Positions 19,861 through 24,706 of a DNA stretch of 64,000 nucleotides are shown piece after piece. Numbering within the stretch: position 1 is the first letter of the stretch; each line of letters opens with the position of its first letter. The notes under the pieces are model-generated. The model was not told the DNA's origin, ran no database searches, and saw only the letters and a program-made list of their open reading frames with translations. A program made the position numbers and the translations under genes. Source of the stretch: Betaproteobacteria bacterium (lineage in GTDB: Bacteria; Pseudomonadota; Gammaproteobacteria; Burkholderiales; Casimicrobiaceae); NCBI GenBank assembly GCA_013298695.1, contig JAAFIS010000004.1, forward strand, positions 1 through 64,000, in the 5' to 3' direction.

Positions 19861-20071
19861 TTTCTTTTTTCAACAGAATGTGCTCAGTTGCGCTTTCATC
19901 TTCATTAAGCAATGCCGATAGTTGTTCTGGTTTCATTTGTTTGATTCGTTGCTCAATTGAACGATCGTATCGGCGATCATTTGGCTCGATTCCCCGCTGC
20001 GCTTTACGAGCGTATTCTTTTGAGAACAGCGCGATCTCATTTGTCAAATTTTCTGGGCGCTTTGACGGCAA
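19853..20071 (-). CDS. small protein of unknown function between LysE and parA
   Basis: 72 residues, highly charged, no membrane segment (NLTNEIALFSKEYARKAQRG, RSIEQRIKQMKPEQLSALL). A TTG start at 20071 is supported by a GAGGT ribosome site 9 nt upstream. Its last 8 nt overlap the parA start, so it is probably cotranslated with parA. I do not recognise a family. The strong ribosome site and tight packing favour a real gene. Confidence 0.6.
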   Translation of the reverse strand: MPSKRPENLTNEIALFSKEYARKAQRGIEPNDRRYDRSIEQRIKQMKPEQLSALLNEDESATEHILLKKEND

Positions 20072-20076
20072 CTGTT

Positions 20077-20745
20077 CTACCTCTGCACAGCAAACTTAAT
20101 GGAAAACCCAATCAACGCCGTCCCCGCAATCCGCTTCAACCACATCGGCGCATTCGGCACGCGCACAAACACTTTTTTCGCCACCGATGCAATTGCAATC
20201 AACCACATGCAATACAAAAAACAAATCGCGAGCACGATGCCGATCATGCGCGCGTAGGTCGCGATGCCGTCGAACGTGTTCGTATCGATAAAGAGCGGGA
20301 AAAACGCGACATAAAAGCCAATTACTTTCGGGTTCGATAACGACACGAACATCGATTCCACAAACCAGTTCTTTACGCCGCGCGCTCTCCGCACCTCTCC
20401 CTCCGGGAGAGGTAACGACGAAGTCGTTGGTGAGGGATCCCCTAACTTGTATTTCGCATTCCTAATCAACGAAAACCCAATCCAAGCCAAATACAGCGCC
20501 CCCGCGTAACGCAACACATCAAACGCACGCGGATACGCCGCCGCGAGCGCCGCCACGCCCGAGAGCGCGAGCACCATCCACACTGTGTCGCCCGCCATGA
20601 GCCCAAGCGTGCTCCACACCCCCGCGCGAGCACCACCGTTTTTCTCCGCCATCGACGCGAAAAGTTTGATCGTGCCGGGGCCGGGGATCGCGAGGAAGAT
20701 GATCGTCGCGATGACAAGCGCCCAGAGGTCGTTGATGCCTGTCAT
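20077..20745 (-). CDS. LysE/RhtB-family exporter with in-frame repeat insertion
   Basis: 222-residue inner-membrane exporter of the LysE/RhtB family (amino-acid or homoserine-lactone type efflux). It starts MTGINDLWALVIATIIFLAIPGPGT, where PGPG is a family hallmark, and has about six hydrophobic segments and the SNPKVIGFYVAFFP motif. A LysE gene in this place (rsmG-LysE-parA) is common in Burkholderiales. Oddity: residues about 103-118 (DPSPTTSSLPLPEGEV) are encoded by the hairpin repeat at 20394-20437, inserted in frame in a cytoplasmic loop after the third helix. The reading frame survives and both flanks align with the family, so it may still work. Confidence 0.88.
   Translation of the reverse strand: MTGINDLWALVIATIIFLAIPGPGTIKLFASMAEKNGGARAGVWSTLGLMAGDTVWMVLALSGVAALAAAYPRAFDVLRYAGALYLAWIGFSLIRNAKYKLGDPSPTTSSLPLPEGEVRRARGVKNWFVESMFVSLSNPKVIGFYVAFFPLFIDTNTFDGIATYARMIGIVLAICFLYCMWLIAIASVAKKVFVRVPNAPMWLKRIAGTALIGFSIKFAVQR
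20394..20437 (+). repeat. CTCTCCC-GGGAGAG hairpin repeat, copy a (inside LysE gene)
   Basis: 44-bp unit: hairpin cctctccctccgggagagg, second hairpin aacgacgaagtcgtt, then ggtgaggga. The same layout occurs in five other copies in this window. It is inserted in frame in the LysE coding sequence. Confidence 0.9.
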
Positions 20746-20803
20746 TTGCGACCTCCGGTCGCAGGACGAATGAACAGTGACGAGTGACGGAATACAAGGC
20801 GCA

Positions 20804-21325
20804 TCACTTCGTGCTCAGTTTGTATTTCGCGTAGTCGTTGGTCTGCGACTTGTAGTAAAGCGTGTCTCCGTCTCGCGGAAAAACATTTCGCATGGTCGAT
20901 GAAAGAAAAATGATGTCCGTTTCACCACTAACAAATCGTTCAAACACGTGATCACAAGCTGTCATTGGAGACTCGAAGTAACGCGCAGTCGGCATCGGGC
21001 CTTTGAGCGATCTGATTGGTGTGAATCTAATTCGGCGAGTTTGTTTTGACCAGTCTTCTTCGACCTTTTCGATCTTAACTTCGAGTATGTACGCCGATTG
21101 CTCAATCAACGGTATCGCGATTGATTCAATAGGTGGGTGTTTGTAATCGGCGCGCCAAGCTGGTGGTGAGCAAGCAACTGCATGAGTCGTAAAGCAGGAT
21201 ATCGCCAATCCGAGCGACCAATTCAGTCGTAGGGTGGGCACCCTGTGCCCACCAACACATCGCCGCGAACCTACTCGCGACCCGAATGGTGGGCACGGAG
21301 TGCCCACCCTACAAAATCGCCTCAC
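20804..21325 (-). CDS. exported protein of unknown function with repeat-derived 5' end
   Basis: The convincing part is about 142 residues: a hydrophobic leader (LGLAISCFTTHAVACS) and a mature domain with ILEVKIEKVEEDW, IRSLKGP and TDIIFLSSTM; no family recognised. The only usable start codon is a GTG at 21325 overlapping the rsmG stop (GTGA). From there the frame runs through the whole 84-bp palindromic element, giving an Arg/Gly/Pro-rich leader unlike a signal peptide n-region. The element has probably replaced the original start. A TTG inside the leader (near 21209) is an alternative. Confidence 0.5.
   Translation of the reverse strand: MRRFCRVGTPCPPFGSRVGSRRCVGGHRVPTLRLNWSLGLAISCFTTHAVACSPPAWRADYKHPPIESIAIPLIEQSAYILEVKIEKVEEDWSKQTRRIRFTPIRSLKGPMPTARYFESPMTACDHVFERFVSGETDIIFLSSTMRNVFPRDGDTLYYKSQTNDYAKYKLSTK
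21229..21312. repeat. GTAGGGTGGGCAC inverted-repeat element, copy 2
   Basis: 84-bp element with ends gtagggtgggcac and gtgcccaccctac in inverted orientation and an unrelated centre relative to copy 1. It lies between rsmG and the next gene and overlaps that gene's 5' end. Confidence 0.85.
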
Positions 21326-22041
21326 GCGCGCTCAAGCCACAACAAACACCGATCCGCATCCAAAAACGGCACCTTCAACTCCCGTTTCCGATCGACCACC
21401 CAGCCCGTGCCTGCAAGCTCGGCGACTTCGTCTTCGGGGAACTTGCCTTTCATCGCAAGCATCAGGCCGTCTTCTTCTGGGACGACACATTCACCCGCTG
21501 TTTTCACGAAGTCTTTGAGCGAGGCGTAGGCGCGCGAAATCACGACGTCGTAGGTGACCAAATGTTCTTCGACGCGTTGATGCACGGCGGAGAGATTGCC
21601 AAGTTTCAAATGCTCGGCGGCCTTCTCAACGTAGTCAGTTTTCTTTCTGACCGCATCGATCGAGACCACTTCAAGATCGGGCCGCATCACGGCAATCGGC
21701 AGCGCAGGGAAGCCGCCGCCCGAGCCCACATCGAGCAACGTGGTCGCTTCTGCGGGAATGCAATAGAGCACGGAGAGCGAATCGAGAATGTGTTGCACGA
21801 GCATGTCGTGCGGATCGCGAATGGCCGTTAAGTTGATCACCGCATTCCATTCGGAGAGAAACGAGAGTGATTCGATGAGCGCATCTTTTTGTTTGCCGCT
21901 CGCGCTGAGGCGCAGCGTTTTCAGACCTTCGGAGAGTTTTTCATAGAGCGCAGCGCGAAGCTCAGGCGTGAAATCGATCAATTCGCGACCCTCTTTAAGT
22001 GGACGATCAATAACGGGACGTAAACCGGCGGATGTAGTCAT
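21322..22041 (-). CDS. rsmG: 16S rRNA (guanine527-N7)-methyltransferase RsmG (GidB)
   Basis: 239-residue SAM-dependent methyltransferase that modifies G527 of 16S rRNA. It has the FLSEWNAVINLTAIRDP segment, the SAM-binding LLDVGSGGGFPALPIAV, VVSIDAVRKKTDYVEKA, and VVISRAYASLKDF. I start at the ATG at 22041 because it matches the family's length; the frame is open far upstream into mnmG but that part is not RsmG-like. It follows mnmG by 92 bp, the classical mnmG-rsmG order. Confidence 0.95.
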   Translation of the reverse strand: MTTSAGLRPVIDRPLKEGRELIDFTPELRAALYEKLSEGLKTLRLSASGKQKDALIESLSFLSEWNAVINLTAIRDPHDMLVQHILDSLSVLYCIPAEATTLLDVGSGGGFPALPIAVMRPDLEVVSIDAVRKKTDYVEKAAEHLKLGNLSAVHQRVEEHLVTYDVVISRAYASLKDFVKTAGECVVPEEDGLMLAMKGKFPEDEVAELAGTGWVVDRKRELKVPFLDADRCLLWLERA

Positions 22042-22133
22042 GCCTTGACCTTGAGGATTGATATTGTTTTGCACGACGGGACGCGTTCCTGTTTTGTTGG
22101 ATTTATCGCTTCGCGTGGGGGATTCGGAGGTTT

Positions 22134-24602
22134 TCACGCAACGCTTTCGTTTAAGGTAGTAGCTCTTGCTGCATTTGCCCGTTTTAAATGGACGAGGAGC
22201 AGGGAAACCGCAGCAGGTGTAACGCCCGATATTCGGCCTGCTTGCCCAAGTGTTTGAGGCGTTGCTAGCGAGAGCTTTTGCTGCACTTCTTTGGAGAGAC
22301 CTCTCACCTGGGTGTAATCCAGGTGCGCCGGAATCACGAGATTTTCGTTGGCAAGCTGACGCTCGATTTCGTCGTTTTGACGATCGATGTAACCGGCGTA
22401 TTTGGCGGCGATTTCGATTTGTTCGGCGACGCACTCTCCCTCTGGGAGAGGGTGCCCCTGAGCTTGGCGAAGCGGCGGGTGAGGGAGTTCCTCTCCCCCT
22501 GGGAGAGGTCGCGCGGTAAGCGCGGGTGAGGGAACACCACCTCGGCACGCAAACCAAATCGAATCGAGGACGCCTTCAAGGTTCTGAAACAACTCGTTGT
22601 TCCAGATACGAAGCACTCGTATTCCATTGGCGGCAAGCGCGGCATCGCGCACTGAGTCGTAGTTCGAATCAAGATGCTGCGAGCCATCTAGCTCGACGGC
22701 GACTTTGGCTTCGTGACAGTAGAAGTCGAGAATGTAGCGATGCTCGCCTAGTTCTATCGGGTGCTGGCGGCGGAATTTGAGATCGTCGAGTCGGCGGTCG
22801 CGCAGGAGGGACCACAAGTAACCTTCCGGGTCTGTCTGGTCTGCACGGAGGGTTCTCGCGTAGTCCAACAATTGCGGATCAGTCGGGCGTTTTTTTCCCT
22901 CACCAACGACTGTGTCGTTACCTCTCCCAACGGGAGAGGTGGAGCTTCCCTCACCCGCGCCTTTGTCGCGACCTCTCCCGGAGGGAGAGGTATCACTCTT
23001 TGCTTTCAGCGAAAACTCCGTGCGCAAGCCATCAATTGTGGCGTAGGTCACGCCCGGCCTGCGAAGCAGCTCAAACAGGCTGTATTCCCGTTCAATAGGC
23101 GTTCCGAGCGTAGCGAGCGCTCGCTCATTATTCAAAATCTGGGGGTTGATCCAGGTGGATTTGAGGCGCTCAGTTTCGGCGGCAATGGCGTCTCGTTTCC
23201 GATTAAACGCGTCCCAACGCGCATCATCGACCAATCCAAGCGCCCTGCCCTGCTCCGTCAAACGCATGTCTGCGTTGTCTTCGCGAAGCTGCAAACGGTA
23301 TTCGGCGCGGCTGGTAAACATGCGATACGGCTCGGAGACGCCTTGCGTGGTGAGGTCATCGACGAGCACGCCCAGATAGGCTTCATCCCGTCGCGGGCAC
23401 CAACCCTCTTTGCCTTGGGCTTTGAGTGCCGCGTTCACGCCCGCGAGCAAACCTTGTGCGGCAGCCTCTTCATAGCCGGTGGTGCCGTTGATTTGCCCAG
23501 CCATGAAGAGGCCATCGAGATACTTGGTTTCGAGCGTTTGTTTAAGCTGGCGCGGATCGAAATAGTCGTATTCGATCGCGTAGCCTGGGCGCAGAATATG
23601 CGCGTTTTCGAGCCCGGCCATTGAGCGGATCAGCGCGATTTGAATGTCAAACGGCAAACTGGTCGATACGCCCGCTGGATAAACCTCTTGCGTGGTCAAG
23701 CCCTCCGGTTCAAGGAAGATTTGATGACTCGTTTTGTCTGCAAACCGATGAATCTTGTCTTCGATGCTCGGGCAATAGCGCGGACCGACGCCTTCAATTA
23801 CGCCGGTAAACATGGGGCTTCGATCCAGGCCGCTGCGAATAATGTCGTGCGTCCGCTCATTGGTATGCGTGATCCAACACGGCACTTGGCGCGGATGCAT
23901 CGCACGCGAGCCCATGAAACTGAACACCGGTTCGGGATCGTCGCCCGGTTGGATGCCGACTTTCGTGTAGTCGATCGTTTTGCCATCGATGCGCGGCGGC
24001 GTGCCTGTCTTCAAGCGCCCTTGCGGTAGCTTCATTTCTTTAAGTCGCGCGCCAAGCGTGGTGGCAGCGGGATCGCCCGCGCGTCCTGCGGTGTAATTCT
24101 GCAAACCGATGTGAATCAAGCCAGAGAGGAACGTGCCCGCAGTAAGCACCACGGTTTCGCTCTCGAAGACCAATCCCATTTGGGTTTTTACGCCTGTAAC
24201 TTTGCCACCGATAACCATCACATCGTCAACCGGCTGCTGAAACAAAGTTAGGTTAGGTTGGTTTTCAAGGCGCGCGCGGATCGCGGCGCGGTACAAAACT
24301 CGGTCGTTCTGCGCACGAGTTGCGCGAACCGCCGGGCCTTTCGAAGAGTTCAGGATTCGGAATTGAATACCCGCCTCGTCTGTGGCGATCGCCATTGCGC
24401 CACCGAGCGCGTCCACTTCCTTAACCAGATGCCCTTTACCGATGCCGCCGATCGACGGGTTGCAGCTCATCTGCCCCAGAGTTTCAATCGAATGCGTGAG
24501 CAATAGCGTTTTCGCGCCCGCGCGAGCAGACGCCAGCGCAGCCTCACTACCTGCGTGGCCGCCGCCAACGACGATTACATCGAAACGGGTGGGGAAAATC
24601 AT
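22134..24602 (-). CDS. mnmG: tRNA modification enzyme MnmG (GidA) interrupted in frame by a DUF559 endonuclease domain
   Basis: MnmG is the FAD-binding subunit that, with MnmE, makes the cmnm5 modification at the wobble uridine of tRNAs. The FAD motif [16 protein letters not shown], the GTPPRIDGK loop, [10 protein letters not shown] and the C-terminal domain ([40 protein letters not shown]) are all present. The protein is 822 residues against about 630 for the family. The excess, residues about 538-723, is a foreign block in the linker before the C-terminal helical domain, with no frameshift or stop. Removing it leaves about 636 residues. Retention of both halves suggests a functional enzyme tolerating a domain insertion (inference); splicing at protein or RNA level is not indicated. 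It heads the mnmG-rsmG block. Confidence 0.95.
22433..22486 (+). repeat. hairpin repeat copy b
   Basis: Variant copy: actctccctctgggagag hairpin, then a segment with cctgagcttggcgaag resembling the TTCGACAAGCTCAGGG repeat seen at 25098, ending gggtgaggga. It forms the 3' boundary of the mnmG insertion. Confidence 0.8.
22490..22533 (+). repeat. hairpin repeat copy c
   Basis: cctctccccctgggagagg hairpin, second hairpin cgcgcggtaagcgcg, then ggtgaggga. Same orientation as copy b and inside mnmG. Confidence 0.9.
22896..22939 (-). repeat. hairpin repeat copy d (inverted)
   Basis: Reverse orientation: tccctcacc, aacgactgtgtcgtt, cctctcccaacgggagagg. It faces copies b and c across the endonuclease coding segment. 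Confidence 0.9.
22947..22990 (-). repeat. hairpin repeat copy e (inverted)
   Basis: tccctcacc, cgcgcctttgtcgcg, cctctcccggagggagagg. It forms the 5' boundary of the insertion in mnmG. Confidence 0.9.
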
Positions 24603-24627
24603 CTGTTGATTTTAGCTGCGTGTTTCT

Positions 24628-24671
24628 CCTCTGCCCTCGGGAGAGGTCGCGCGGGAAGCGCGGGTGAGGGA
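24628..24671 (+). repeat. hairpin repeat copy f, upstream of mnmG
   Basis: cctctgccctcgggagagg hairpin, cgcgcgggaagcgcg hairpin, then ggtgaggga. It lies between the mnmG start and the first parS site, and is the only copy in this window outside a coding sequence. Confidence 0.9.
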
Positions 24672-24690
24672 AATTTCGCGCATAAGCAGA

Positions 24691-24706
24691 TGTTCCACGT
24701 GAAACA
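24691..24706. promoter_or_regulatory. parS site 1
   Basis: TGTTCCACGTGAAACA matches the conserved 16-bp parS palindrome bound by ParB (family consensus TGTTTCACGTGAAACA), with one arm mismatch. Confidence 0.93.

Follow-up and report, generated by a model that had tools for sequence, protein, structure and literature searches.

Palindromic elements lying in frame in many unrelated proteins have reportedly been described from Rickettsia by Ogata and Claverie, and these elements are not known to carry an enzyme. The intrastrand-triplex motif BoxC/PIT/TMECO is known from more than 260 genomes; in E. coli MG1655 it is always intergenic, and the TMECO sites examined show no transposase or integrase remnants and no mobility activity around them (Holder et al. 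2015, PMC4666352). In the case of repetitive extragenic palindromes (REPs), some copies are reported to lie inside genes (PMC3733652). Regarding DUF559 nucleases, VsrA of Caulobacter belongs to this family, is responsible for the DNA damage response of methylation-deficient cells and has been proposed as a mismatch-repair nuclease (PMC12907096). Here we describe a stretch of 64,000 nucleotides from a Betaproteobacteria bacterium (assembly GCA_013298695.1, contig JAAFIS010000004.1; 'the window' in the following), in which the gene mnmG (gidA) contains, in frame, a DUF559 nuclease domain set between inverted hairpin repeats. This insert is probably a palindrome-ended mobile element whose sole gene encodes a Vsr/EDxHD-like nuclease and which is translated unspliced within host proteins.

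The mnmG gene is a single open reading frame (ORF) of 822 codons on the minus strand (22134-24602) which, by the ORF list and Pfam, reads through the insert (22434-22991, minus strand). According to the linker alignment, the insert corresponds to MnmG residues 538-723 and consists of repeats, nuclease and linkers. Pfam matched GIDA at residues 8-399, GIDA_C_1st at 460-524, DUF559 at 579-686 and SAM_GIDA_C at 748-803, and because N- and C-terminal MnmG domains are recognised around DUF559, both halves of MnmG are present. An earlier reading of the letters by a model (the sequence-only reading) had claimed an 822-residue MnmG with this very insert, an open frame and two intact halves, all of which was confirmed by the ORF and Pfam. 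Its view that the segment is DUF559-like also held, as the profile match (PF04480; 22545-22868, minus strand) lies far above the curated cut-off (E 4.3e-33; 113.9 bits versus 20.6). DUF559 is all that Pfam detects in the insert, and this is the sole DUF559 match in the genome sequence to which the window belongs.

Residues E593, D626, E637 and D639 were found at the positions where that reading had put them, with H643 in addition. In an alignment of 28 nested copies (not all of those found), E, D, E-x-D and H are invariant in 28/28, and we take these conserved acidic and histidine residues to be the DUF559 active site. A structure model of the domain, with a predicted local distance difference test (pLDDT) of 89.9, had its best PDB match in the endonuclease-like NGO0050 (3HRL, Foldseek E 1e-7), followed by the catalytic domain of the homing endonuclease I-Bth0305I (3R3P, Foldseek E 1.6e-4, profile E 4.7e-4). 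Profile, residue set and fold argue for a DUF559 Vsr-like PD-(D/E)XK nuclease, with DNA cleavage as its predicted activity. Profile matches to LT/cholera-type B chains (E 0.011-0.11) were taken as chance. The structure model of the full-length MnmG fusion (pLDDT 54.9) was usable for nothing beyond low-confidence linkers.

Each repeat combines a CTCTCCC-N3-GGGAGAG hairpin with a GTGAGGG tail and, mostly, with a second hairpin whose sequence varies. As the sequence-only reading had described, two repeats lie on either side of the nuclease, the left pair inverted relative to the right. At this unit the tails face the nuclease. On the N-terminal side, the outer repeat (22946-22991) shows hairpin, second hairpin and inward tail, and the inner repeat (22895-22940) has the same orientation; on the C-terminal side, the inner repeat (22490-22534) is inverted with respect to this pair and the outer one (22434-22487) is degenerate. 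Folding z scores against shuffles were -3.6, -4.3 and -3.6 for three of the mnmG repeats, and the outermost repeat (22431-22487) folds little better than its shuffles (z -1.2). By chance, about 0.008 hairpin cores would be expected in the 758 bp that hold four. The whole genome of 4.08 Mb has 44 copies of the core versus none of a reversed control pattern, and 41 of the 44 have the GTGAGGG tail on one side, as a third block of the BoxC type. A search of the window with a 4-nt-loop hairpin pattern found nothing, because the loop of the window repeats has 3 nt.

The stretch between tail and hairpin core was measured in 19 repeats of this genome; it has 9-28 nt, mostly 16-18, and is mostly occupied by the second hairpin. 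The mean length of this second stem is 4.74 versus 2.96 in shuffles, with an individual p below 0.05 in 10 of the 19, while the stem sequence varies. Since the stem is longer than in shuffles despite sequence change, the hairpin shape itself seems to be kept.

Copies without a nuclease are scattered over the same genome. Ten close pairs of hairpins, 45-158 bp apart, were found outside the window: six inverted with both tails inward, three with one of the tails resolved, and one direct. The six inward-tailed pairs have the layout of the mnmG unit minus the nuclease. Distinct tailed repeats are free of stop codons in five of six frames (29/37) or in four of six (8/37), thus landing in frame is easy. 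Altogether 21 of the 44 hairpins lie in frame inside 14 Pfam-recognised proteins, namely MnmG (which holds four), an MmeI-like enzyme, a His_biosynth protein, acyl-CoA dehydrogenase, aconitase, prolyl oligopeptidase, urease alpha, GMP synthase, a PurL-type protein, a DEAD helicase, glycine cleavage P protein, hydantoinase B, a DUF7948 protein and LysE; this is fewer than random placement would give, because most of a bacterial genome is coding. The copy in the LysE-family gene (20395-20411) lies in the window near mnmG, in frame in the gene at 20077-20745 (minus strand), and the Pfam LysE match spans this nuclease-less hairpin.

Nested DUF559 domains are not confined to mnmG. Three samples were used: 100 relatives, the best 80 of 585 loci from named genomes, and viral loci (G and L numbers are our handles for genomes and loci). 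The query for the named-genome set was built from nested copies, and therefore the nested share in it is no unbiased rate. A domain was counted as nested if its open frame had 300 codons or more; insertions that broke genes therefore go unseen, which is a selection bias. L064, a LipB cut at a contig end, falls below this length. A DUF559 match was present in 39 of the 100 relatives, many in long frames. When 30 further long-frame proteins were scanned, Pfam recognised DUF559 together with a host family in every one; by our own naming of the Pfam families, the hosts amount to 20 kinds: MetG, MetH, ValS (2), Mfd, BioA, Mur ligase, HrpA (2), HsdM (3), HsdS (2), MmeI/type IIG (5), Mod, PurQ, YgiQ, AsnB, DnaG, TatD, LipB, HyuAB (2), an HODM-like protein and EarP. 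Host matches stand on both sides of the nuclease in 18 of 31 proteins including MnmG, assuming that unprinted second stretches of a match lie across the insert; the others meet a protein or contig end or are unannotated on one side (TatD, PurQ and YgiQ among them). In several hosts, e.g. BioA, AsnB, EarP and LipB, the insert splits the match of the catalytic domain.

Carriers include Pseudomonadota, Chloroflexota, Nitrospirota, Cyanobacteriota, Candidatus Binatota, Kapabacteria and Coatesbacteria. A nested copy is found in a one-contig genome (G005, in DnaG), and named isolates with nested copies are Stagnimonas aquatica THS-13, Methylomonas sp. WSC-7, Mariprofundus erugo P3 and Pseudanabaena sp. 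FACHB-1998. Of the 25 nested hosts in the named-genome set, 12 are restriction-modification proteins (HsdM 3, HsdS 3, MmeI/type IIG 5, Mod 1; loci L123, L125, L128, L143, L155, L157, L119, L127, L129, L176, L182 and L186), where the HsdS host of L157 was assigned by eye; at L178, also one of the 25, no host was identified. Viruses or plasmids as the main route were rejected, as hairpins on both sides were found in 6 of the 42 placed among 46 viral DUF559 loci, and 37 of 72,556 plasmid records matched, many of those listed being megaplasmids.

Hairpins and nuclease are closely associated. Hairpin density within 400 bp of the nuclease exceeds that beyond 1200 bp by 10 times in the relatives, 21 times in the named-genome loci and 10 times in the viral loci. 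With viral loci left out, hairpins stand within 150 bp on both sides at 28 of the 40 nested loci, as against 17 of the 90 free ones (Fisher p 5e-8); the search for DUF559 between such repeats, which the sequence-only reading had suggested, thus finds it nested elsewhere too. Of 135 nearest hairpins (viral included), 83 have a resolved tail, which points inward in 68 (p 3e-9), and 52 have none resolved. At the level of genomes, at least four palindromes are present in 25 of 31 genomes with a strong DUF559 match versus 11 of 69 others (p 7e-10), counting those with a weak match (G043, G061, G071, G078, G080, G082, G091 and G097) as without. Other genera of the family show this co-occurrence, and so does the order. 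Palindromes were also counted in genomes without a DUF559 match, with 110 in G014, 100 in G024, 85 in G048, 22 each in G021 and G052, and 15 in G073.

In the case of MnmG, the insert is not present in all relatives, and the idea of a mobile unit thus passes a check that the sequence-only reading had set. Among 21 aligned MnmG linkers the nuclease is found in G000 and G002 only and is absent from 19. At the same place, MnmG of G001, G010, G011, G014 and G031 has peptides read as palindrome-derived, without nuclease, and the remaining linkers are short or empty. In an MnmG tree of 18 species, G000, G002 and G009 form one clade (support 100/99), and since G009 is without nuclease, either it disappeared from G009 or there was more than one gain.

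Between G000 and G002 the ratio of nonsynonymous to synonymous rates (omega) of the nuclease is 0.033, with saturated synonymous divergence (dS) and a ratio of nonsynonymous to synonymous differences (pN/pS) of 0.10; MnmG itself is similar (omega 0.051 and 0.109). The two linkers show dS of 0.34 and 0.21 and omega of 0.45 and 0.75, figures that come from just 40 and 32 codons with several gaps. The low omega of the nuclease and the few synonymous changes in the linkers indicate that the nuclease protein frame and the repeat DNA both seem to be kept. In all ten nuclease pairs computed, pN/pS is 0.10-0.37, the lowest value being that of the MnmG pair. The nuclease in MnmG is under purifying selection.

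The borders of the unit can be seen at three loci with related nucleases, L017 (G031), L019 (G050) and L020 (G027). L017 and either of the other two are non-homologous loci, and their common sequence runs only from about -104 to +341, that is, between the outer hairpin edges; the exceptions outside this stretch are repeat-to-repeat matches and one 21-bp match. L019 and L020 have flanks in common too. As the similarity of the non-homologous loci is confined to the stretch between the outer hairpins, the unit is discrete, and we are highly confident that the mnmG insert is a discrete mobile unit nested in frame. The L017 unit lies in the hscB-hscA gap of G031, which was read in 10 of 11 genomes of one genus: the gap is empty in G021 and G044, has no such repeat in G027, G050, G035 and G041, and has palindromes without nuclease, some of another type, in G038, G048 and G052.

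Similar allele states were detected within proteins. In Gallionellaceae, HrpA matched in 56 of 60 genomes and 30 loci were taken, with site 2 read in 28 and site 1 in 13. Site 2 is empty in 20 loci; L328 has a single repeat there, L334, L336 and L341 have a pair, L318 (the same gene as L137) has a pair-nuclease-pair arrangement, and L319 has a short unexplained extension. At the same site, L344 and L346 have another palindrome family in frame, with a peptide containing SGLRRNDG; as this loop is used by BoxC-like units too, some protein loops are hot spots for several palindrome families. Site 1 has a nuclease in L331, L336 and L337, repeats in L318, L334 and L341, and is empty in seven; L135, a locus outside the 30, has a nuclease at this site as well. 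The nucleases of L135 and L137 are 80% identical, yet they occupy different HrpA sites. In the LipB loop, alleles with and without nuclease between the repeats are found at the same place, with another palindrome type in G014. The DnaG of G011 and the HrpA of L137 have the nuclease between direct copies of a whole repeat pair. In the DnaG of G015, the flanking peptides are kept together with a short remnant of the nuclease start, which we read as an in-frame loss.

In the nuclease tree (126 rows, domains below 85 aa dropped; few columns, bootstrap unsettled), nested copies cluster, with 16 changes versus 33 in shuffles. Several copies cluster with their lineage instead of with their host gene: in one Rickettsiales genome the ValS and Mfd copies, its sole two DUF559 matches, are sisters (98/91). 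In two Anaerolineae, ValS and type IIG copies are likewise sisters (99/82), and the G016 copy in HODM pairs with the G004 copy in HyuAB (100/96).

Regarding expression, an own ATG within 20 codons upstream was found in 5 of 36 nested versus 48 of 73 free nucleases, in a count that left out viral loci and 43 loci without a start motif. Translation as a fusion with the host protein is the simplest reading, and internal initiation at GTG or TTG may occur. Pfam found no Hint splicing domain in 31 fused proteins scanned, and Rfam gave no match at the gathering score for a catalytic RNA around the nuclease (window 20000-24700); in view of this and of the open frame, we rejected the intein and intron readings. 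Ribosome bypassing was rejected too, as the linkers keep the frame and length changes between G000 and G002 are whole codons. To judge from the open and selected frame and from the lack of an intein or Rfam match, splicing is probably absent.

A possible mechanism can be drawn from these parts. The mnmG insert would be a full-length copy, ordered hairpin-tail, Vsr-like (DUF559) nuclease, tail-hairpin, and the scattered hairpins of the same genome, often in inverted pairs, would be its nuclease-less forms. Copying would take place at the DNA level: the nuclease would nick or cut hairpin or target DNA, and repair would copy the unit, perhaps with resident repeats as landing homology. Landing in a surface loop with the right length would leave one long protein, in which the nuclease is made as a domain of the host enzyme, so that neither an own start codon nor splicing would be needed. 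The nuclease would be sheltered from nonsense and frameshift mutations, because these would break the host enzyme too. The sequence-only reading had proposed a mobile unit of nuclease and repeats in a conserved gene; the unit itself is supported by the allele states and the many hosts, and with regard to the nuclease as its mover we lean, with some reserve, towards accepting this role.

Several observations weigh against a unit that is moved by its nuclease. With a hairpin pattern that tolerated one mismatch only, no hairpin lies within 150 bp in 24 of 50 loci of the relatives, 33 of 80 of the named-genome set and 31 of 42 viral ones. Within the genus the co-occurrence does not reach significance (p 0.12). 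Of the 69 genomes without strong DUF559, 11 have four palindromes or more, with a maximum of 110 in G014, and repeats can thus spread or persist where no nuclease is detectable. Inspection by eye at LipB, HrpA and hscBA revealed no clear target-site duplication, because the loops vary in length, and the insert at HrpA site 2 stands in place of about four codons. In the nuclease tree, copies from the same host gene cluster together in the MnmG pair, the DnaG trio, MetG L117/L118 and HsdS L125/L157, a pattern in line with long inheritance and less so with recent movement. The DUF559 family also has other lives, e.g. Caulobacter VsrA. The repeats might instead be spread by a REP-associated tyrosine transposase (RAYT/HUH), slippage or recombination, with DUF559 merely caught between two of them. 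The abundance of repeats in genomes without a DUF559 match (G014, G024, G048, G021, G052 and G073) and the other palindrome types in the same loops of LipB (G014) and HrpA site 2 (L344, L346) are in line with such a passenger role, which is nevertheless rather unlikely in view of the genome-level co-occurrence (25/31 versus 11/69), the inward tails (68/83) and the intact active-site residues of all 28 aligned nested copies. G014 and G048 are, moreover, just 80% and 73% complete, though G021, G052 and G073 reach 97-100%; in these palindrome-rich genomes the nuclease may have been lost or lie in missing sequence, or another mover may exist. Because several of them are nearly complete, our overall confidence in the mobile-element reading is slightly lowered.

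A version of the mobile-unit reading, in which the repeats came first and the nuclease, instead of founding new repeat sites, cuts resident repeats and copies itself into them by repair, is possible, although we do not favour it. Repeat-only and nuclease-bearing alleles share the same place in MnmG, LipB, both HrpA sites and the hscBA gap, and the nuclease between direct copies of a whole repeat pair in G011 DnaG and L137 HrpA would suit it; the G015 DnaG, however, resembles the scar of an in-frame nuclease loss, and the G009 MnmG lies within the nuclease clade without a nuclease, so repeat-only alleles can be deletion products. That each host gained the nuclease for a useful fused activity is improbable. 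Purifying selection and the 12 restriction-modification proteins among 25 nested hosts, where a nuclease could make sense, speak for such a function, but the other hosts (MetG, MetH, BioA, LipB, PurQ, ValS) have none in common, the sites differ even within HrpA, and the domain is absent in most relatives read at the MnmG, LipB and HrpA site-2 loops. Finally, an assembly chimera or spurious open frame, a concern since many of the genomes are metagenome-assembled and one already raised by the sequence-only reading, has a negligible chance: two species carry the insert at the same MnmG site under purifying selection, and the unit recurs in many independent assemblies, among them the one-contig G005 and the named isolates.

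For the spread of BoxC/triplex repeats, a candidate enzyme makes the question directly testable, E. coli K-12 with its ycjD included. The mobile-unit reading would further imply that selfish DNA can live inside proteins without splicing, and that a nuclease protected within an essential frame would have a means of resisting mutational decay. For protein evolution, it would be a source of new domains and linkers in aminoacyl-tRNA synthetases, primase and MnmG. Annotation is concerned as well, as DUF559 is treated as if it were a domain of the host, and nested copies help to find protein loops that tolerate a domain of about 120 residues. Within the openly licensed PubMed Central literature, covered by title and start of abstract, no paper was found that links DUF559 to these repeats, to mobility or to nesting.

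Elsewhere in the window, a second and unrelated inverted repeat pair lies at 21229-21254 and 21287-21312, with 26-nt arms that are 92% complementary and 32 nt between them. It is located (21229-21312) just past the rsmG stop, at the start of a small ORF without a Pfam family.

Compared with the Rickettsia palindromic elements, in-frame palindromic insertion is common to both; those elements are not known to carry an enzyme, whereas the units described here carry a nuclease and span several phyla. In the case of the EDxHD homing endonuclease I-Bth0305I (PDB 3R3P), the Vsr-like fold and the role as nuclease of an inserted element are the same, but that enzyme is part of a group I intron and has additional regions for DNA binding (PMC3943268), whereas here no intron or intein was found and just the small catalytic domain is present. 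Caulobacter VsrA has the same Pfam domain and, as far as described in PMC12907096, where the word palindrome is absent, is not nested.

In the BoxC/PIT/TMECO motif, too, CCCTCNCCC and GGGNGAGGG blocks form a hairpin to which a third block is added (PMC4666352), with some copies in tandem inverted order and a tie to genome instability. Unlike the copies described there, those of the genome studied here lie in frame in proteins in nearly half of the cases (21/44), and some have a nuclease between them; in place of the consensus spacer of about 3 nt, they mostly have a second hairpin. In L017, the unit of G031, the spacer is short. We regard the copies of the window genome as BoxC-like rather than as strict members. 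In E. coli K-12 the DUF559 gene is ycjD, and TMECO copy 9 (E. coli MG1655 1,351,204-1,351,239; about 11204-11240 of L116) is located 168 bp downstream of it. The chance of a BoxC copy so near to ycjD is about 0.004 for 23 copies, but the E. coli tail points away from ycjD, hence this nearness is a lead only.

In layout the units resemble the REPtrons, i.e. REPs or their paired form (REPIN) with RAYT/TnpA-REP. According to PMC3733652, the hairpin there has a conserved tail, pairs are inverted, such repeats stand on both sides of an enzyme gene, and gene-less copies lie elsewhere in the genome; all of this is the same here. The enzyme is different, an HUH tyrosine transposase there versus a PD-(D/E)XK/Vsr-like nuclease here, as is the tail (GTAG versus GTGAGGG), and here whole units lie in frame inside proteins. 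We put it at about even that this is unlike any described class, with palindrome-ended units that their sole gene, the nuclease, moves at the DNA level and that persist as translated but unspliced domains in essential enzymes. In kind, it is a non-HUH, protein-dwelling counterpart of REPtrons and palindromic elements.

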